A stretch of 53,277 bases of DNA, from the NCBI GenBank assembly GCA_016875095.1, contig VGSG01000017.1, positions 1 through 53,277 of the forward strand. Reading direction: 5' to 3'. Made by a program: the position numbers and the translations under genes. Position 1 is the first letter of the stretch; the number at the start of each line of letters is the position of its first letter. Shown here piece after piece: positions 28,618 to 38,646 of the stretch. Source of the DNA: Deltaproteobacteria bacterium. GTDB lineage: Bacteria; Desulfobacterota; Desulfomonilia; Desulfomonilales; Desulfomonilaceae. Under the pieces are notes generated by a model. It did no database searches and was not told the DNA's origin. It saw nothing but the letters and a program-made list of their open reading frames with translations.

Positions 28618-29943
28618 ATGGCAGGACTAACGTTTTCCAAAGGTGGAGTCCACCCGGAAGAACACAAGGAATTGACCGAGCGCCTCGCGATTGAGGAAAT
28701 GCCGCCTCCCGCGCAGGTTGCGCTCCCGCTCTCCATGCACTTCGGCGCGATTGCGCAGCCGGTGGTCAAGAAGAAGCAAGAGGTTCAAGAGGGCGAAGTG
28801 ATTGCTGTGGTGGAAAAGGGACTGGGAGCGCCGATCCATAGCAGCGTCACCGGAACGGTCAAGACTGTCGAACCGCGGCCGCATCCGACCATGGTTCGAT
28901 GCGATGCAATCATCATCGACCGTGATCCGGCGGCGGCCCCCCGAAAGTACGAGCGTGAGAACTGGACCACACTCTCACGAGAACAGCTCCTGGCGCGGGT
29001 AAAGGACGCAGGCATCGTGGGACTGGGCGGCGCTGGATTTCCCACGGCCGTCAAGTTGTCTCCTCCGCCCACAGCAAAGATGGATCTGCTCATTCTGAAC
29101 GGCGCGGAGTGCGAACCGTACCTCACCACGGATCACCGGATCATGTTGGAACATCCGGAACAGGTGGTGGAAGGCGCCAAGATCATGGTGAAAATCCTTG
29201 GGATCAAGAAAGGCGTTATCGGCGTTGAGCTGAACAAGCCCGACGCGATCAATGCGCTCCAGAAGGCCCTGAAGGTTTCCGACGGGCATGACGAAGGGGA
29301 AATAGCCGTTCAGGGCGTGCAAGTTAAGTATCCCCAAGGTTCTGAGAAACAGTTGATCTACTCGCTCACCAAGAGGTCGGTTCCCGGAGGCGGCTTGCCG
29401 TTCGACGTGGGGGTGATCGTCCAGAATATCTCCACTACAGTGGCGGTCTACGAAGCCGTAACTATGAACAAACCACTCTACGAAAAGGTGATGACCGTAT
29501 CAGGACGTGCCATTAAGCGGCCGGCGAACATCAAGGTAAAGGTCGGCACGGTCCTCTCCGACGTGGTTGAATACCTGGGCGGGGTCTCCGACGATCTGCT
29601 CAAGATAGTTTCCGGTGGGCCCATGATGGGATTTGCCATGTCCAGCATGGATGTCCCTGTGGTGAAGACCACATCGGGTGTGTTGTTCCTAAATAGCAAA
29701 GAGACGAGCATAGGGCCTTACGGTCCGTGCATTCACTGCGGTTGGTGCCTGCAGGCGTGTCCGATGGGTTTGGCTCCCAAGGAGATAGGGATCTACGTGG
29801 AAGCGGGCAAAGGTCACCTGACCGAGCGATTCGGAATTATGGAATGCTTTGAGTGCGGGTGCTGCGCGTACGTGTGCCCGGCCAAGCGACCCTTGGTGCA
29901 GTTTTGCCGCCTTGCCAAGATAGGCGTCAAGAGAGGCTCCTGA
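28618..29943 (+). CDS. rnfC: Rnf complex subunit RnfC
   Basis: This is the 441-residue peripheral subunit of the Rnf ferredoxin:NAD+ oxidoreductase, which binds NAD(H) and FMN on the cytoplasmic side. The barrel-sandwich N-terminus (about 1-110) contains GGVHPEEHKELT. The flavin/NAD region includes VGLGGAGFPTAVKL and NGAECEPYLTTDHR. Near the C-terminus are two [4Fe-4S] motifs, CIHCGWCLQACP and CFECGCCAYVCP, each followed by the expected distal Cys-Pro. The protein ends soon after, without the Ala/Lys-rich extension of E. coli RnfC. The start site AGAAAGAGC is a weak ribosome-binding site. First gene of rnfCDGEAB. Confidence 0.95.
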   Translation: MAGLTFSKGGVHPEEHKELTERLAIEEMPPPAQVALPLSMHFGAIAQPVVKKKQEVQEGEVIAVVEKGLGAPIHSSVTGTVKTVEPRPHPTMVRCDAIIIDRDPAAAPRKYERENWTTLSREQLLARVKDAGIVGLGGAGFPTAVKLSPPPTAKMDLLILNGAECEPYLTTDHRIMLEHPEQVVEGAKIMVKILGIKKGVIGVELNKPDAINALQKALKVSDGHDEGEIAVQGVQVKYPQGSEKQLIYSLTKRSVPGGGLPFDVGVIVQNISTTVAVYEAVTMNKPLYEKVMTVSGRAIKRPANIKVKVGTVLSDVVEYLGGVSDDLLKIVSGGPMMGFAMSSMDVPVVKTTSGVLFLNSKETSIGPYGPCIHCGWCLQACPMGLAPKEIGIYVEAGKGHLTERFGIMECFECGCCAYVCPAKRPLVQFCRLAKIGVKRGS

Positions 29944-30081: not shown

Positions 30082-31116
30082 ATGGAACCCCAGTGGGCCG
30101 TATCCATATCGCCCCATATCAGACAGACGCAGACAACAGCCGGGATCATGTGGACCGTATCCGGTTCGCTGATACCGGTGTTGTTGCTGTCGATCTATAA
30201 CTTCGGCCTGCGGAGCTTGTTTATCACTCTCTCCAGTGTGATCTCATGCGTGGTGGTCGAGGCGATCTGCCAGAGAGCGCTGGGAAGACCGATTTCGGTG
30301 AAGGACGGGAGCGCTGTCCTGACAGGCATTCTGCTCGCGTTCGTCATTCCTCCCGGTGTGCCCTACTGGCTGCCGATCATCGGGGCTGTGGCCGCCATCT
30401 TCATCAACAAGCAACTCATGGGAGGCCTGGGCTTTAACGTATGGAACCCCGCGCTCGTAGGACGCGCGCTCCTCACCGCAGCCTTCCCGGTGTACATGAC
30501 CGCTGCGTGGATCCCCTCGCGTGAGGTGAGCCACGTGCCGATTCTTAACTACATCTGGGGAGGTTTAGACGGAGTTTCGACCGCGACCCCGCTCTACGTG
30601 CTCCGGCACTACGGCATGGAGGCGCTCACGAAGCAATTCGGCGATCTGCCGGTGATCTACACGAACTTCCTGCTCGGTTTCAAGCCGGGTTGTATCGGCG
30701 AGACATCCGCGGTGCTCATCCTGCTCGGTGGGCTGTTCCTGATGGCGCGCGGCATAATCACCTGGCCGATCCCGGTTTCTACGCTGGCGAGCGTAGCGGT
30801 CATCAGTTGGGTATTCGGCGGCGAAACATGGCTCAGCGGCCCGGTCCTGGTGCATCTCCTTTCCGGCGGCGTGATACTTGGGGCCTTTTATATGGCTACG
30901 GACTACGTGACGTCGCCATCGCTCAAAACCGCGCAGATTATCTTCGGCATAGGAGTGGGGGGCCTCACCATGCTCATTCGCCTCAAGGGAGGTTATCCCG
31001 AGGGAGTCTGCTATGCGATTCTGCTCATGAACTGCCTCACACCCGCGCTGAATGAATGGTTCAGGCCGGAGAGGTTCGCGCCTCCCAAGCAGGCGCCTGT
31101 CGCGGCAGCCAAGTAG
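30082..31116 (+). CDS. rnfD: Rnf complex subunit RnfD
   Basis: This is a 344-residue membrane subunit with nine or ten helices. The RnfD start pattern SPHIRQTQTTAGIMW is at about 9-23, FNVWNPALVGRALL in the middle, and DYVTSPSLKTAQIIFG near the end. The DGVSTATPL motif supplies the threonine that carries a covalently bound FMN in RnfD/NqrB. It conducts ions and electrons across the membrane. The ATG at 30082 gives the usual distance to SPHIR but has no ribosome-binding site. A good one, GGGAGG, lies at 30038-30043, spaced for an in-frame ATA at 30052. The gap to rnfC is 138 bases with no other gene. Confidence 0.93.
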   Translation: MEPQWAVSISPHIRQTQTTAGIMWTVSGSLIPVLLLSIYNFGLRSLFITLSSVISCVVVEAICQRALGRPISVKDGSAVLTGILLAFVIPPGVPYWLPIIGAVAAIFINKQLMGGLGFNVWNPALVGRALLTAAFPVYMTAAWIPSREVSHVPILNYIWGGLDGVSTATPLYVLRHYGMEALTKQFGDLPVIYTNFLLGFKPGCIGETSAVLILLGGLFLMARGIITWPIPVSTLASVAVISWVFGGETWLSGPVLVHLLSGGVILGAFYMATDYVTSPSLKTAQIIFGIGVGGLTMLIRLKGGYPEGVCYAILLMNCLTPALNEWFRPERFAPPKQAPVAAAK

Positions 31117-31141: not shown

Positions 31142-32050
31142 ATGAAGGAAATCATTAAGATCACTATGAGCCTTACCGGCGTGTGCATAGGAGCCGCGCT
31201 CATCCTGGGCGCGGTGTACACTCAGACCGAAGGACCACGCCAAAAAATAGAAATGAAGCAGAACGAAGAGGTGATCCAGGGGCTGCTCGGATATGGTCAT
31301 GGGAAACACGCCCCGTCCGATCTCGTAGTGCGCCGGATCGACCGGTATGTGGTCCAGGAGCCGAAAGGACAGACCCTTCTCGGGTACGTGCTGCCGGTAA
31401 AGGATGGGAAATTCACGATTGCTCTGCTGGATCTCGAAGGCAAGCCCGCGGACAAGGTGCCGGTCACCGCTACCGCTGCTGAGTTGGAAAACAAAGCGAC
31501 CCGGAACGCAGCCGTGAAGGCGGCTCTCCCAAAGGGCTCTGACGCCACGTACGCGGACACGTACTATATCGCAGACCAGGGCGGAAAGAGGCTTGGGTAT
31601 GTACTCCCCGGGAAAACGCAAGGTTTCAAAACCTTTATCAAGCTCATGGTCTCGCTTGACCCCAATTTCACGGTTACGGGCGTGGCCATTACCGAATCGG
31701 AAGAGGATCCCGGGTTGGGAGCCGAGATTCAACAGGACTACTTCAGGAACCAGTTCGTGGGGAAGACACAAGAACAGTTGACGAAGCTCAAGGTGATCAA
31801 AGAACCGCTTCCCGACAAATACTTCGACGTGCTCGATCCTCTCAGGGCGAAGAAACTGAGGATCAAAGCAGAAGAGATCAAGAAAATCAAGGAGAAACAC
31901 CTCCAAGACGATATCTACGCCTTGACCGGCGCGACAATTTCGAGCCGAGCAGTCACGAGTGGCGTCCAAGATACGGTGAAGAAATTCACCTATAGATTTG
32001 ATTTGTTGAAAAAAGCTGTCGAGCAGGAAAGAATTCCCGTCGCCTTTTAA
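31142..32050 (+). CDS. rnfG: Rnf complex subunit RnfG
   Basis: This 302-residue protein has one N-terminal membrane helix (about 5-26) and a large periplasmic part. An FMN is bound covalently to the threonine of the LTGATISSRAVTSGV motif at about 266-280, as in RnfG and NqrC. TESEEDPGLGAEIQ is the usual second landmark of the FMN-binding domain. It is longer than E. coli RnfG (206 residues), with an insert of about 80 residues between helix and FMN domain that includes RIDRYVVQEPKGQTLLGYVL. The frame is open upstream, but the ATG at 31142 is the membrane-helix start and follows GAGGG. It overlaps nothing and lies 25 bases after rnfD. Confidence 0.94.
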   Translation: MKEIIKITMSLTGVCIGAALILGAVYTQTEGPRQKIEMKQNEEVIQGLLGYGHGKHAPSDLVVRRIDRYVVQEPKGQTLLGYVLPVKDGKFTIALLDLEGKPADKVPVTATAAELENKATRNAAVKAALPKGSDATYADTYYIADQGGKRLGYVLPGKTQGFKTFIKLMVSLDPNFTVTGVAITESEEDPGLGAEIQQDYFRNQFVGKTQEQLTKLKVIKEPLPDKYFDVLDPLRAKKLRIKAEEIKKIKEKHLQDDIYALTGATISSRAVTSGVQDTVKKFTYRFDLLKKAVEQERIPVAF

Positions 32051-32062
32051 CGGAGGAACACG

Positions 32063-32683
32063 GTGAGCAGATATCCAGATCTTATCTGGCGCGGCCTAAT
32101 TCCTGAGAACCCCATATTTAGGCTCGCGCTGAGCATGTGTCCCGCGGTCGCGGTGACCGTTAACGTGCAGAACGGTGTCATGCTTGGCCTGGCGGTGGTC
32201 TTTGTGCAAGTGATGTCAAGCTGCACGGTTGCGATCTTCCGGGGGTTCATCCATCCGCGGATCCGGATACCGGCCTACGTGCTGATCATTGCGCTTTGGG
32301 TGAGCGTCGTGGACATGGTTCTTCCCGTGATTAACCCAGCCATCTATGAGCAGGTCAAGCTCTTCGTGAAGCTGATTGTGGTCTTCGCGATCATCATTTC
32401 CCGCTTGGAGCTGTTTGCTTCCAAAGAGCCCCTGATCCCCTCCTTTTTTGATGGGCTGGGGATGGGGCTGGGATTTCTCTTGGGGCTTTGTCTTATCGGC
32501 GCCATTCGCGAGCTCTCGGGAACCGGTCAGCTTCTCGGGTTCGACATCCTGGGATTCAAGCCGCTACTCGTCATGATCCTACCCGCAGGAGGGTTCTTCG
32601 TGATCGGGTTCATCATGGCCGCATTCAACTATATCGAATACAAGCTTACGGGTAAGATCCCCACTTCCGGCGGAGGTCACTGA
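32063..32683 (+). CDS. rnfE: Rnf complex subunit RnfE, with one cluster cysteine missing
   Basis: This 206-residue, six-helix membrane subunit pairs with RnfA. Family landmarks are IPENPIFRLALSMCPAVAVT near the start, RIPAYVLIIALWVSVVDM, and DGLGMGLGFLLGLCLIGAIREL. In Rnf and the related Nqr complexes, RnfE/NqrD and RnfA/NqrE each give two Cys to an intramembrane [2Fe-2S] cluster. Cys26 here matches the first. The second normally sits in a VNC/TNC-(I/L)xxGRAEAFA motif. Here the aligned stretch is VVFAIIISRLELFAS, so Ala109 replaces the cysteine and GRAE becomes SRLE. Cys54 is an extra membrane cysteine. Starts with GTG after GGAGGAA, 12 bases past rnfG; it ends one base before rnfA. Confidence 0.92.
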   Translation: MSRYPDLIWRGLIPENPIFRLALSMCPAVAVTVNVQNGVMLGLAVVFVQVMSSCTVAIFRGFIHPRIRIPAYVLIIALWVSVVDMVLPVINPAIYEQVKLFVKLIVVFAIIISRLELFASKEPLIPSFFDGLGMGLGFLLGLCLIGAIRELSGTGQLLGFDILGFKPLLVMILPAGGFFVIGFIMAAFNYIEYKLTGKIPTSGGGH

Positions 32684-32684
32684 T

Positions 32685-33638
32685 ATGAAGACCTTCCGAC
32701 TCATCACAATAGCTTTTATGGCCGCGGGGTTGCTCTGCCTGGGCGCTTCCCCGATTCTTGCCGATTTCACCAAAGACGGTTCGTTCAAAAAGGACAAGCA
32801 GATAGAACTCGACTTCGGCATCCCGGTGGATGAGAGTTGGGCGCGGGAGCTGTCAAACTACTCGGTGTATGAGAAGCCGGATCCGGATATCCGGACGCCG
32901 GTGGAAGCCGCGCAACTCGATCCACAAAGACTTAGGGTGACCTTGACCTTTAAAGAAGCGCTGAATCAGGCCGCGCAATACGTCGTCGAAGTCAAAGACG
33001 TCACTTCCGGCGGGAAGCCCATCGGAAGCGGGCGATTCCTCGTGAAGAAGAGTCGGGCGTCGGTGATGATGGGGATAATCTTAGGGGCCATGCTGATCAA
33101 CAACTTCGTTTTTACTAAGTATTTGGGATTGTGCATCTTTTTCGGAGTATCACAGAAGCGGGAAACCGCGATCGGCATGGGAATCACCTTCACCATCGTC
33201 ATGGTGCTCAGCGCGTTCTTCTGTTGGGCGCTCTACCAACACGTCTTGACCACACTGCGCTTGGACTTTCTCAAGATCATCGTCTTCATCGGTACGACGG
33301 CCATATTCGTGCAAGCGGTGGATACGGTGTTGCGCAAGGTGAACCCGTACCTCTTCAAGCGGTTGGGTGTCTACCTCGTGCTGATCGTCACCAACTGCAT
33401 CATTCTCGCGGTCCCCCTGATCAATGCGGACAGCGGGTATAACGCGGCAGAGAGCGTAAGCGAGGGTATCGGCGCAGGAGTCGGCTTCGCAATAGCGTTG
33501 TTTCTCATGGCGTGCGTCAGAGAGCGGCTGGAGGTGTGCCGAGTGCCTCCCACGTTTGCCGGGTTGCCGATTGCGTTCATCGTGGCGGGCCTGTTTGCCT
33601 TGGCGTTTCTCGGTTTTTCAGGGCTCGTGGTTTTCTGA
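32685..33638 (+). CDS. rnfA: RnfA fused to an N-terminal secreted Ig-like (Big_5-type) domain
   Basis: RnfA is normally about 190 residues with six helices. Here the protein has 317. Residues 1-26 are a signal peptide (cut ILA-DF). Residues 36-120 form a domain like bacterial SbsA/Big_5 Ig domains: QIELDFGIPVDESWARELSN, then LRVTLTFKEALNQAAQYVVE and KDVTSGGKPI. The RnfA part starts near 125, with INNFVFTKYLGLCIFFGVSQ and IVTNCIILAVPL, so both cluster cysteines are there (Cys150, Cys238). The fusion is not a frameshift artefact: one open frame, with GGAGGTCAC before the ATG and none needed inside. The Ig domain would sit in the periplasm and might contact RnfG or cytochromes (inference). Confidence 0.92.
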   Translation: MKTFRLITIAFMAAGLLCLGASPILADFTKDGSFKKDKQIELDFGIPVDESWARELSNYSVYEKPDPDIRTPVEAAQLDPQRLRVTLTFKEALNQAAQYVVEVKDVTSGGKPIGSGRFLVKKSRASVMMGIILGAMLINNFVFTKYLGLCIFFGVSQKRETAIGMGITFTIVMVLSAFFCWALYQHVLTTLRLDFLKIIVFIGTTAIFVQAVDTVLRKVNPYLFKRLGVYLVLIVTNCIILAVPLINADSGYNAAESVSEGIGAGVGFAIALFLMACVRERLEVCRVPPTFAGLPIAFIVAGLFALAFLGFSGLVVF

Positions 33639-33714: not shown

Positions 33715-34629
33715 ATGGAAAGCGCGTGGACCACGGCCGGGTACGGCCTGGCATTCTTCATTATTTTCGGCGCGGTCTGCGGTGTCGTGCTGGCTTACGC
33801 GGCGAAGCGCTTCGCGGTCCAGATCGACCCGAAGATCGAAGCGGTCAGGGCTTGTCTTCCGGGCGCAAATTGCGGCGCGTGCGGCTTTGCGGGATGCGAA
33901 TCTTACGCGGAGGCGGTTGTCACCATACCCGATGTTCCCGTGAACAAATGCGCTCCCGGCAAAGGCGACGTCGCGTGCAAAGTTGCGGAAATAACCGGCA
34001 AGCAGGCGGCAGAGGCGGGTGAAGTGATTTCTGTGTTGCGTTGCTCCAAGAATGAGGGCGGCGTGAAACGGAAGCATTCATACGTGGGCTTTGACACCTG
34101 CACTGGAGCGAATCTTGCCTTTGGCGGTCCCTGGGAATGCGACTTCGCGTGTATCGGTTACGGCGACTGCGAAACCGCGTGCCCGTTCCACGCGATCCAT
34201 ATGCATGATGGGATGCCGGTGATCGACCCGGAAACCTGCACCGGGTGCGGTGTTTGTGTGAAGATGTGCCCAAAGAGCGTGCTCCAGCTTGTGCCCAAGG
34301 ATGCCCCGGTCTCTGTGCCATGCAGCACAAAGGACAAAGGCAAGGAAGTTACAAACGTCTGCTCCGCGGGATGCATCCATTGCCTAGCGTGCACGAGGAA
34401 GGCCAAGGATGTGGTGAACCTGATCAACGATCGCATCGAGATCGATTATCCCAACCTCACCGAGCAGATGGCTAAGGACGCGGTCTGGGCGTGCAATCGC
34501 CAATTCATTTTCCGATACCGCGATCCTGAACAGCAAGCCAAGGCCGTTGAGCAAATAAAGGCAGAGCAAGCCGCAAAGAAAGCCGCGGCCGCAGCCAAGA
34601 AAGCCGCGGAAGAGACCGCGGAAGCTTGA
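33715..34629 (+). CDS. rnfB: Rnf complex subunit RnfB
   Basis: This 304-residue iron-sulfur subunit is the likely entry point for ferredoxin electrons. It has an N-terminal membrane helix (about 6-28). Next comes the [4Fe-4S] domain with LPGANCGACGFAGCESYAEA and the distal VNKCAPGK. Ferredoxin-like [4Fe-4S] motifs follow: ACIGYGDCETACP, CTGCGVCVKMCP and a further cysteine set SAGCIHCLACTRK. It ends in an Ala/Lys-rich helix with repeated AAKKAA, common in RnfB/C tails. The frame is open upstream; the ATG at 33715 follows GAGAGGTG and begins the membrane helix. A perfect -10 box TATAAT (33650-33655) lies in the 76-base gap after rnfA, but without a good -35. Confidence 0.95.
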   Translation: MESAWTTAGYGLAFFIIFGAVCGVVLAYAAKRFAVQIDPKIEAVRACLPGANCGACGFAGCESYAEAVVTIPDVPVNKCAPGKGDVACKVAEITGKQAAEAGEVISVLRCSKNEGGVKRKHSYVGFDTCTGANLAFGGPWECDFACIGYGDCETACPFHAIHMHDGMPVIDPETCTGCGVCVKMCPKSVLQLVPKDAPVSVPCSTKDKGKEVTNVCSAGCIHCLACTRKAKDVVNLINDRIEIDYPNLTEQMAKDAVWACNRQFIFRYRDPEQQAKAVEQIKAEQAAKKAAAAAKKAAEETAEA

Positions 34630-34681: not shown

Positions 34682-36070
34682 TCAAGGCGTCGGCTGGGAG
34701 CACAAACGATCCACGTCGATGCCGTGCTTTTTGATCAGACTCCAGACGGTCTGACGGCTCACCCCCAAAACACGGGCCGCATCCCCTCGCTTACCCTTAG
34801 CGACAATGAGAGCGTCGATGAGGCGCTCCTTGCTCGTTCTCCGCATTGCGGCGTTGTGAGCCGGCGCAAGAGGAGTGTGGGAGGCGCGGGTCAGTTCCGG
34901 CAAATCGCCTCTTGAAATGGTGTCCCCGGCGCACACCACGAGAGCATACTCGATGACATTGATAAGCTCTCGAATGTTTCCCGGCCAATTATAGCGGGTC
35001 AGGACTTCCATAGCCTCCCGGTCCACTCCTGTGATGCATTTGCCGGTTCGCGCGGAGATCTGTCGAATGAAGTGGCTTACCAACAGAGGCACGTCTCCCG
35101 GCCGTTCACGGAGAGGAGGGACTACGATAGGGATCACGTTGAGTCTGTAAAAAAGATCGTCCCGGAACAAGCCTCTCGCCATGAGCGCTCTCAAGTCTCG
35201 GTGGGTGGCCGCGATGATGCGGACATCGATCGGCACGGGTCGATAGTCGCCAACTCGTTCCACCTCCTTTTGCTCGATGACTCGCAAAAGCTTCACCTGG
35301 ATGGATAGCGGCACGTCACCGATCTCGTCCAGGAAGATGTCGCCCGTATGGGCGGCTTCGAACCTACCTTTGGTAGTCCTGTCCGCTCCTGTGTAAGCTC
35401 CCCTGACATGTCCGAACAGCTCGCTCTCCAGCAGTGATTCGCTCAGCGCCGCACAGCTCACCCGGATAAAAGGCCCCTTGCTCTTTTTGCCAAGCCGGTG
35501 GATCGCTGCAGCCACCAGTTCCTTGCCCGTGCCGCTCTCTCCGTACATGAGGACCGGAGCGTCCGACGTGGCGGCCTTGCTCATAAGATCAAACAAGGTT
35601 CGCATCTGCGGCGATGTTCCGACGATCCCGTGGAACCCGTAACGCTCACAGAGCAAGTTCCGCAAGTGAAGCACCTCTTTCTCGGTCTGCCGCAATCTCG
35701 TCAGATCGCTTTGAACCTCAACCGCGCACAGAGAGTGCCCTTCGGGGTCAGGGATCACTCGGGCGTTCTTGAGCACTGTGACCAGCGTGCCGTCCTTCCG
35801 TTTTAGCGAGCAGTGCTTGTCAATAAGATGGCCTTCTTTGAATAGGGAGCAGGGGCCTTGCTGCTCTTTCCCAGGCATCCGCGGGCAGCAGTCAAAGTCG
35901 AGCACGGAGCAGCGCCGGCCCACCAGCTCATCATGGGAAAAACCGGTCAAGAGTTCCATCGCGCGGTTTATGAACACGATCTTGCCCCCTTCCTCTATGA
36001 GCATGAGCCCTTCGGTCATGGTGTCGAGGATCGTTTTCCAGAAGACAGGATCGCTTTGAAGTCTGAACAT
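34682..36070 (-). CDS. Sigma-54-dependent activator with cysteine-rich PAS domain
   Basis: This 462-residue regulator has an N-terminal PAS domain (about 8-120), a central AAA+ sigma-54 activation domain (about 148-375) and a C-terminal Fis-type helix-turn-helix (about 420-455, GDAARVLGVSRQTVWSLIKK). The AAA+ part shows Walker A GESGTGKE (177-184), the sigma-54-contact loop GAYTGA (224-229) and Walker B FLDEIGDVP. The PAS domain has five cysteines at 54, 61, 62, 74 and 87, including DCCPRMPGKEQQGPC, suggesting a metal, Fe-S or thiol redox sensor (inference). The gene is divergent from a small membrane-protein gene that has a sigma-54 promoter, so it likely controls that gene. No receiver domain, so no partner kinase is needed. 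Confidence 0.95.
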   Translation of the reverse strand: MFRLQSDPVFWKTILDTMTEGLMLIEEGGKIVFINRAMELLTGFSHDELVGRRCSVLDFDCCPRMPGKEQQGPCSLFKEGHLIDKHCSLKRKDGTLVTVLKNARVIPDPEGHSLCAVEVQSDLTRLRQTEKEVLHLRNLLCERYGFHGIVGTSPQMRTLFDLMSKAATSDAPVLMYGESGTGKELVAAAIHRLGKKSKGPFIRVSCAALSESLLESELFGHVRGAYTGADRTTKGRFEAAHTGDIFLDEIGDVPLSIQVKLLRVIEQKEVERVGDYRPVPIDVRIIAATHRDLRALMARGLFRDDLFYRLNVIPIVVPPLRERPGDVPLLVSHFIRQISARTGKCITGVDREAMEVLTRYNWPGNIRELINVIEYALVVCAGDTISRGDLPELTRASHTPLAPAHNAAMRRTSKERLIDALIVAKGKRGDAARVLGVSRQTVWSLIKKHGIDVDRLCSQPTP

Positions 36071-36918: not shown

Positions 36919-38646
36919 ATGAAATCGGAACGAGCCTCTCAGTTGCTCTGCATGGTTACCTGTCTGACGCTGGTCGTGGTAGGTATGTGCGGAGCGGAGG
37001 ATCCGTTCCTGACCACAGAAGAATGCCTCGCGTGTCACGGACAAAAGGATCTGAAATCACGCCGAGGAATAAGCCGATATATCGATCCCGAGCGATACGG
37101 GAAATCGGTTCACGGAGCCCAAGTTGTGGGGTGCGCTTCGTGCCACACGGGTATCACTGAGATCGATCGGCGGGCCAGAATTCCCCATCCGGCCCCTTCC
37201 GATCCAAATTGCAGTCAGTGTCACCCGCGGGTGTTTGAGGAATACTCACGGAGTCTGCACGCGCAAGTATCGAAGAAACTTTGCTATTCATGCCACAGTC
37301 CGCATTACAGCGTTTCTTTCCGCCATTTGTCCGGGGCTGACAGGAAGGCGATCTGCCTCAAATGCCACGATGCCTGGAGGACCCATCGCTGGCTCCCCCA
37401 GATGAACCTTCATTTCGATTACCTCGAATGCACTTCATGCCATGCGCTGAACGCTGAGATCGGGATTATCTTCTCCTTGGTCGAAGGGACTGAGGGACCA
37501 CAGGAGCATGTCCTGGACTACCGCCGACTCGTACGTTTCATTGAGCCCGGAAGAAAAGGGATTACTGAAACACTGGACCGGGACGCCGACGGAAAGATTT
37601 CCGACGAGGAACTCCAAGCATTTATGAACCGCCTGAAAGAACAGGGCATGCCAGAAGCTGCGCTCCGAGCGCGAATTCTGGTCCTTAAGCCGAGCCACAA
37701 TTTTTCCGCCCGAGGAGAGCAGACGCGAAACTGCTTGCTGTGTCATTCGACGGGAGCGCCTTTTTATTCCAAGCTTCTGCTGAAGTTACCCGAAGAAGAC
37801 GGAGGATTCAGGACCGTGCCTCTGGACAAAGGCTTTCTCGCGCGACCCGGGCAACGGCCATTCATGGAGGATGTCTATCTCCTGGGGGAGTCCAAGATCC
37901 GTAAAGAGGATTTGGAGGAAGTGCTCTCAATCGTCCGCAGAATAGGCTTCAAGTGGATTGACGTAATCGGAGTCTTCATAGCTGTTTTCAGTCTTTGCGC
38001 GGTCGGTTTTCACGCCCTGCTCATCTTCCTGACCAGGAAAGCGCGAGGAGCTCTGCCGCGATCCTTAACCATCGAACCTCTTCCGTTGCCGGTGCGGGTC
38101 TGGCATTGGTTGCACGGTTTGTGCGTGATCGTGTTGGCGTTTAGCGGGATTCAGTTGAGGCTTCCGGATGTCTTCCCCATATTCGCTTCCTTCCTCAACG
38201 CGGTGAATCTCCACAACCTGTGCGGGCTGTTAGTGGTAGTGGATTACGTGTTTTGGCTGGCGTATCACCTTGTCAAGCGAGAATTCAGGGCTCGATTCCT
38301 TATTTCACCTATCGGTTTCTTTCGAGACGTCGCGGAGACTCTTCACTACTACGGGTATGTGATCTTCACAGGGGAAACGAATCCCGAGAGCAGCGCGCGG
38401 CGCTATCCATTTGATCCAGTGGAACGGATGTTCTATTTGGCGGTCATGCTGGTTCTCGTTCCAATCCAGATCATGACCGGCTTGATGCTGTACGACGTGC
38501 AGACGATGCAGCCGGCCATCGTTGCTCTGGGAGGGCTACGCGTCGTGGACGCGGCGCATCTCCTGGTCGGCTACTTGATAGTCTCTTCAATGATTCTGCA
38601 CTGTTACTTCCACACACTGAAGAAGTACGGTCGGCTGGCAGCTTGA
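36919..38646 (+). CDS. Seven-haem cytochrome c fused to membrane cytochrome b (CbcL-like)
   Basis: This 575-residue protein has a signal sequence (1-26), a periplasmic part with seven CxxCH haem c sites (36-40, 72-76, 98-102, 122-126, 146-150, 171-175, 272-276), and a C-terminal b-type cytochrome domain with four or five helices (about 340-565). Likely haem b histidines are in VRVWHWLHGLC, NLHNLCGLLVV and SSMILHCYFHTL, as in HydC/FdnI-type proteins. The layout matches Geobacter CbcL, which passes menaquinol electrons to periplasmic carriers. Between haem sites 6 and 7 is an insert with a canonical EF-hand loop, Asp220-Glu231 (DRDADGKISDEE), implying Ca2+ binding; I do not know this in CbcL. 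The sigma-54 activator and small membrane protein upstream may regulate it. Confidence 0.9.
   Translation: MKSERASQLLCMVTCLTLVVVGMCGAEDPFLTTEECLACHGQKDLKSRRGISRYIDPERYGKSVHGAQVVGCASCHTGITEIDRRARIPHPAPSDPNCSQCHPRVFEEYSRSLHAQVSKKLCYSCHSPHYSVSFRHLSGADRKAICLKCHDAWRTHRWLPQMNLHFDYLECTSCHALNAEIGIIFSLVEGTEGPQEHVLDYRRLVRFIEPGRKGITETLDRDADGKISDEELQAFMNRLKEQGMPEAALRARILVLKPSHNFSARGEQTRNCLLCHSTGAPFYSKLLLKLPEEDGGFRTVPLDKGFLARPGQRPFMEDVYLLGESKIRKEDLEEVLSIVRRIGFKWIDVIGVFIAVFSLCAVGFHALLIFLTRKARGALPRSLTIEPLPLPVRVWHWLHGLCVIVLAFSGIQLRLPDVFPIFASFLNAVNLHNLCGLLVVVDYVFWLAYHLVKREFRARFLISPIGFFRDVAETLHYYGYVIFTGETNPESSARRYPFDPVERMFYLAVMLVLVPIQIMTGLMLYDVQTMQPAIVALGGLRVVDAAHLLVGYLIVSSMILHCYFHTLKKYGRLAA

Follow-up and report, generated by a model that had tools for sequence, protein, structure and literature searches.

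We found that, in a sample of 395 genomes of the Desulfobacterota, a Cys-to-Ala replacement at the intramembrane [2Fe-2S] site of RnfE and a remodelled RnfG are confined to the same 13 genomes, in all of which RnfA carries an additional Ig-like domain at its N-terminus. This variant of the Rnf energy-converting ion pump belongs to a widespread branch of bacteria related to sulfate reducers, and its route for electrons through the membrane seems to have been rebuilt. The changes in RnfE and RnfG are the larger finding; both lie outside the rnfA gene to which the initial annotation of this DNA was limited and were missed there.

A complete rnf operon encodes a long RnfA

The window, meaning the whole stretch of DNA analysed here, comprises 53,277 nt of contig VGSG01000017.1 from a Deltaproteobacteria bacterium of the Desulfomonilaceae (assembly GCA_016875095.1). 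All six rnf genes are present in one operon, in the order rnfC-D-G-E-A-B:

28618..29943, + strand, rnfC, above the NCBIfam cut-off
30082..31116, + strand, rnfD, above the NCBIfam cut-off
31142..32050, + strand, rnfG, enlarged, 302 aa (canonical about 200)
32063..32683, + strand, rnfE, variant type, PF02508 E 1e-51
32685..33638, + strand, rnfA, long form, 317 aa, PF02508 E 4e-51
33715..34629, + strand, rnfB, above the NCBIfam cut-off

The start of rnfG was set at ATG 31142 by alignment with relatives; the longest ORF begins at 31052, inside rnfD. The long rnfA lies directly 3' of rnfE, with its ATG 8 nt past a GGAGG, and positions 32685-33638 form one frame encoding a signal peptide, a beta-sandwich of about 95 residues, a short linker and a complete RnfA. 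This confirmed the continuous frame with a good ribosome-binding site that had been read from the sequence initially. A chance ORF or a frame artefact was ruled out, as the architecture is kept in 84 distinct relatives.

When the curated NCBIfam cut-offs were applied, RnfC, RnfD and RnfB of the window passed, while RnfA (TIGR01943, 200.8 against 229.3), RnfE (TIGR01948, 171.2 against 213.4) and RnfG (TIGR01947, 87 against 102) fell short; RnfE passed the RsxE subfamily model NF009070. The complex does not belong to the Na+-NQR, since RnfB and RnfC pass the Rnf cut-offs and the NqrA models do not pass.

A PAS/AAA sigma54-type regulator (34682-36070, - strand) adjoins the operon, and nearby (36919-38646, + strand) lies the gene for a large protein that has membrane helices at its C-terminus and several haem motifs of the CxxCH type; both were recognised by eye.

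The N-terminal domain of RnfA is predicted to fold independently

The long RnfA is divided as follows:

32685..32762, + strand, signal peptide, residues 1-26, predicted cleavage after ILA26
32763..33047, + strand, putative periplasmic Big_5/SbsC-like Ig domain, residues 27-121
32877..32891, + strand, PDPDI motif, residues 65-69, best-conserved loop of the domain
33048..33065, + strand, linker from the Ig domain to RnfA TM1, residues 122-127 (about 6)
33066..33635, + strand, RnfA core, residues 128-317, PF02508 over residues 129-314

The signal peptide (residues 1-26) was called as type I by eye, with cleavage predicted between SPILA and DF. A lipobox-like GC closes the signal peptide of about 30 Desulfobacterales relatives; that of the others looks type I. 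The lipobox gives independent evidence that the Ig domain is exported and, combined with the linker to TM1, suggests that the domain is tethered at both ends in those species. By structural alignment, the RnfA core shares 46% identity with RnfA in the A. woodii structure; in that structure L22 (TM1a) is extracellular and K32, located just after TM1, contacts the cytosolic B8 cluster (PMC11889175), which places the RnfA N-terminus outside. The periplasmic domain on an N-out RnfA postulated at the outset fits this placement, and an N-out variant RnfA with its Ig domain on the periplasmic side is supported by the comparison.

The SbsA/Big_5 pattern noted in the initial annotation was borne out in part. 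Pfam Big_5 matched the domain of the window itself with 17.0 bits (E 0.01), below the gathering cut-off of 23.6, but it matched the domains of 35 of 47 relatives (best E 1.3e-6). A profile of the Ig domain searched against the PDB retrieved the S-layer proteins Sap (E 2e-5) and SbsC (E 8e-4). AlphaFold2, run on the domain alone with a domain alignment, returned seven strands spanning residues 28-120 with a mean pLDDT of 91.6 and a pTM of 0.83, and the nearest solved fold was SbsC 4uic (Z 15.5 over 99 residues), followed by CopC proteins (Z about 6-9). The secreted Ig-like domain is thus predicted to be an independent fold of the SbsC type, in line with what had been proposed. In the prediction of full-length RnfA, made as a single chain, the membrane part was of low quality. 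The beta-sandwich is common to the SbsC/Sap S-layer Ig (Big_5) domains, the CopC-like domains and the RnfA domain; unlike the others, that of RnfA stands alone as one domain and is fused to a subunit of a redox pump. CopC-like metal binding was discarded as a candidate function, the window domain having neither of the His positions seen in other relatives.

As the nearest folds are S-layer Ig and CopC-like domains, the Ig domain could dock a partner outside the complex, such as a periplasmic cytochrome c3, peptidoglycan or the surface layer, and RnfG would then play no special part. Relatives of sulfate reducers possess periplasmic cytochromes, and this general knowledge would also suit such a partner. 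However, no multihaem cytochrome gene is consistently present in the variant rnf operons compared, which weakens the cytochrome link put forward initially, and the tie to TM1 of about 6 residues, with the apparent N-terminal lipid in the roughly 30 Desulfobacterales relatives, would hold the domain at the membrane, which argues against the cell-wall tie. Moreover, the Ig domain was found only alongside an enlarged and altered RnfG, so that among the partners first suggested RnfG gains support, although indirectly. We consider an outside partner unlikely.

Among relatives, the dN/dS of the Ig domain, about 0.29, lies between those of the RnfA core (0.11) and the signal peptide (0.58). The Ig domain is under purifying selection, and it evolves at about 3 times the rate of the core. 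Within the domain the PDPDI loop hardly varies (P67, D68 and I69 are invariant across 71 sequences) while the remainder drifts. One explanation would be an assembly or stability device: signal peptide and domain together would secure the N-out insertion of RnfA and make the RnfA/E dimer more stable, taking no direct part in electron transfer. The joint occurrence of signal peptide and domain would agree with it, as would the roughly threefold faster evolution, expected of a structural add-on; on the contrary, a near-invariant loop in a drifting domain points to a specific contact, and canonical RnfA inserts without any Ig domain. We judge such a device improbable.

RnfE has lost one of the four cysteine ligands

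The positions of the intramembrane [2Fe-2S] site in the window are:

32138..32140, + strand, RnfE Cys26 (= C25), [2Fe-2S] ligand, kept in 80/80 readable sequences
32384..32389, + strand, RnfE Phe108-Ala109, replacing canonical Asn107-Cys108 (A. woodii numbering)
33132..33134, + strand, RnfA Cys150 (= A. woodii C25), [2Fe-2S] ligand, kept in 82/82
33396..33398, + strand, RnfA Cys238 (= A. woodii C113), [2Fe-2S] ligand, kept in 82/82

The intramembrane [2Fe-2S] cluster has four ligands, among them RnfE Cys108 (PMC11889175), and the Rnf cofactors were termed strictly conserved in a 2025 review (PMC12174285). In the variant, the position of the fourth ligand holds Ala, as part of the Phe-Ala pair seen in 81/81 RnfE sequences but in 0/35 canonical ones (Cys in 35/35). 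This is the most striking of the residue switches between the two groups, and the alignment with solved structures has no gap at the Phe-Ala site. With three of the four Cys of the cluster kept and Ala at the C108 position, we file the complex as a variant and not as a member of the canonical Rnf. The other three Cys are conserved without exception in the readable sequences, suggesting that the metal site of RnfA/E is probably retained. A compensating Cys both new and universal was not found in variant RnfA, RnfE or RnfG; Q49, S24 and H64 of RnfE are candidate new ligands. In A. woodii, mutation of the cluster cysteines abolished growth and activity and removed two irons (PMC11889175), and the single replacement C29A in NqrD gave an enzyme devoid of the cluster (PMC10643135). 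RnfE R67 and E115, the Na+-related ion pair of A. woodii, are kept in 81/81 variant sequences.

RnfG is enlarged and its flavin pocket is changed

The corresponding features of RnfG in the window are:

31259..31555, + strand, insert 1, about 80 extra residues, between the TM helix and the FMN domain
31628..31630, + strand, Lys at the NqrC Trp146 position, K/R in 79/79
31706..31708, + strand, Asp at the NqrC Thr173 position, D in 79/79, canonical T in 35/35
31802..31900, + strand, insert 2, about 30 extra residues, ahead of the TGAT flavin-attachment motif
31934..31936, + strand, Thr of the TGAT motif, covalent FMN site, kept

RnfG has about 300 residues in every variant operon, compared to about 200 in the canonical ones. 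No convincing domain match was found for the insert in Pfam or the PDB, but 25 residues of it (within 31259-31555) resemble the adjacent strand of the FMN domain (E 6e-4), which hints at a partial internal duplication. Thr173 and Trp146 of NqrC were described as stabilising the flavin N5, with Thr173 in contact with N5 (PMC9325719), and the RnfG Asp was assigned to Thr173 by alignment; canonical proteins mostly have Gly at the Trp146 position. The covalent FMN threonines are present in both RnfG and RnfD of the variant. The major contact of RnfG is the RnfA/E cavity (PMC11889175).

The variant Rnf has a single origin

Long RnfA was found in 18/18 genomes of the same family, the window genome included, and was absent in the sampled sister family of the class. 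When 84,980 genomes were scanned, the best 80 of 122 matching loci were examined and all 80 encoded the long form, in Desulfomonile, Desulfobacterales and Desulfobulbales relatives; named carriers are Desulfonema magnum 4be13 (Desulfobacterales) and, among the Desulfobulbales relatives, Desulfofustis glycolicus DSM 9705 and Desulforhopalus. The relatives are represented for the most part by metagenome-assembled genomes. Long RnfA is a trait of a clade and is not unique to the window genome; a recent insertion private to it was ruled out by this spread over the family and further loci. Complete rnf operons are present in Desulfobulbales relatives (L076-L111), while a published legend (S9 Fig of PMC10553843) gives Rnf as absent from Desulfobulbales; BLASTP may have overlooked the variant there owing to its divergence.

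The phylum, the only one surveyed systematically, was sampled with the 395 genomes, 148 of which carry Rnf/Nqr subunits. The Ig-domain profile matched 14 of the 395, that is 13 RnfA fusions and one unrelated repeat protein in a genome without Rnf. The RnfG insert profile retrieved the same 13 genomes plus one marginal match (E 0.0045), and the variant RnfE profile scored 269-335 bits in these 13 and at most 184 in all others. Some carriers also possess a canonical Rnf. The long form is thus carried by 13 of the 148 Rnf/Nqr-bearing genomes. No report of a long RnfA, of the RnfE Cys loss or of an enlarged RnfG was found in the open-access literature searched. In 38 further operons of the phylum, 36 had a short RnfA and two were divergent members of the variant (L142, L143).

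We also looked for positions that are conserved within each group but occupied by a different residue, comparing 79-82 variant with 35-36 canonical sequences. Results showed 8 such switches in RnfA, 12 in RnfE, 2 in RnfG and 2 mild ones in RnfD, with 0 in RnfB and 0 in RnfC. In a tree of RnfA core, RnfE and RnfD, from which the Ig domain was left out, the 29 sampled variant operons were separated from the rest by a branch supported at SH-aLRT 100; their stem was long, at 0.98 changes per site. The variant Rnf has a single origin and forms one clade among the sampled members. The co-occurrence of its traits therefore represents one event followed by long joint retention, and not repeated independent gains. 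In a comparison of evolutionary rates, the Ig domain had its largest partial correlations with RnfD (0.40) and the RnfG insert (0.22), the value for RnfD being the higher, and about 0 with the RnfA core; all were weak and without a proper null.

A single origin would also be expected if the Ig domain were a tolerated passenger, fused once in an ancestor and unrelated to the changes in RnfE and RnfG, and the fast evolution of the domain would be in agreement. We regard this as very improbable, considering that the domain is retained in all 18 genomes of the family and across three large groups, that its dN/dS of about 0.29 and its invariant residues speak for constraint, and that no variant operon without it occurs in the sample.

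Comparison with known Rnf and NQR complexes

The variant has in common with the canonical Rnf of A. woodii, C. tetanomorphum and A. vinelandii the six subunits, the inverted RnfA/E pair, three cluster Cys, the flavin threonines, the RnfE R67-E115 pair and the RnfB, RnfC and RnfD modules. It differs by the exported Ig domain on RnfA, by an RnfG that exceeds the canonical one by about 100 residues and has D/K in its flavin pocket, by Ala and Phe for RnfE Cys108 and Asn107, and by RnfA positions E88, now Asp, and T110, now mostly Ile/Val (A. woodii numbering). The T110G mutant of A. woodii RnfA did not grow (PMC11889175). The Na+-NQR of Vibrio cholerae has a homologous NqrB-E core and the NqrC flavin shuttle, but carries NqrF/NqrA where the window has RnfB/RnfC, keeps all four Cys, and its NqrE has no Ig domain.

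Desulfococcus multivorans was described with two Rnf types, A. woodii-type and Tol2-type, split by RnfB and RnfC (PMC5109826). The Tol2-type Rnf of Desulfobacteraceae (PMC5109826) occurs in the same bacteria, at times in the same genome, as the variant, but differs from it by RnfB (about 700 aa) and RnfC; in the Tol2-shaped operons sampled, RnfA and RnfG are short and none of the four cluster Cys is missing. Tol2-type operons correspond to loci L133-L136, L140, L141, L146, L148, L150, L156, L157 and L162, and in many of them a gene for a 4-8 haem cytochrome adjoins rnfC.

An in-frame TGA in rnfB of relatives

In 26/78 RnfBs of variant operons, an in-frame TGA occupies a Cys codon of the B8 [4Fe-4S] motif (GAQ*GGCGF), as in L045:6059, L050:6080, L061:6170, L074:6308 and 22 others. 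The other 52/78 have TGC/TGT at this codon and none has TAA/TAG; the window has TGC (33871-33873). A tRNA-Sec scored over the cut-off in 6/8 genomes with TGA-containing rnfB that were checked, while a search for SECIS in these relatives by simple folding energies failed to separate TGA from Cys forms. The TGA-containing RnfB is a candidate selenocysteine protein.

A model for the variant Rnf

According to the literature, electrons pass from RnfB to the RnfA/E cluster; they are taken up next by the FMN of RnfG, and this swings over to RnfD. In the variant, the signal peptide would export the RnfA N-terminus, which would fold in the periplasm as a Big_5/SbsC-type Ig domain. About 6 residues from TM1, this domain would lie where the RnfA/E dimer opens to the periplasm and where RnfG, with its FMN head, would pick up the electron. 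The domain may guide or lock the enlarged RnfG during the step from RnfA/E to RnfG. The RnfA/E site with three Cys and the RnfG pocket with Asp and Lys/Arg would represent a coordinated rebuild, possibly with altered cofactor chemistry. Considering the enlarged RnfG, the altered flavin pocket and the altered cluster together, guidance or locking of RnfG by the Ig domain is the simplest reading. We favour, at slightly better than even confidence, a variant Rnf of single origin in which the Ig domain docks or guides the enlarged RnfG and the transmembrane electron step was rebuilt as a coordinated set. The cytoplasmic modules RnfB and RnfC are unchanged, as is most of RnfD, suggesting that the exchange of electrons between ferredoxin and NAD, together with ion pumping, is probably maintained in the variant.

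A bolder and more tentative proposal, which we hold to be less likely than not, is that the variant is a separate class of Rnf. Its intramembrane relay would be a three-Cys centre whose fourth ligand is not Cys, or else a different cofactor; in RnfG, the flavin N5 would lie beside Asp, and the Ig domain and the RnfG insert would gate this step. If true, its potentials, and possibly its proton coupling, would be unlike those of all known Rnf/NQR.

In conclusion, this is a conserved natural lineage in which Ala stands at one ligand position of the cluster, the flavin pocket is altered and two periplasmic parts have been added, carried by bacteria that are important for sulfur and carbon cycling. 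It offers a ready-made test of how the cluster couples electron transfer to ion pumping.
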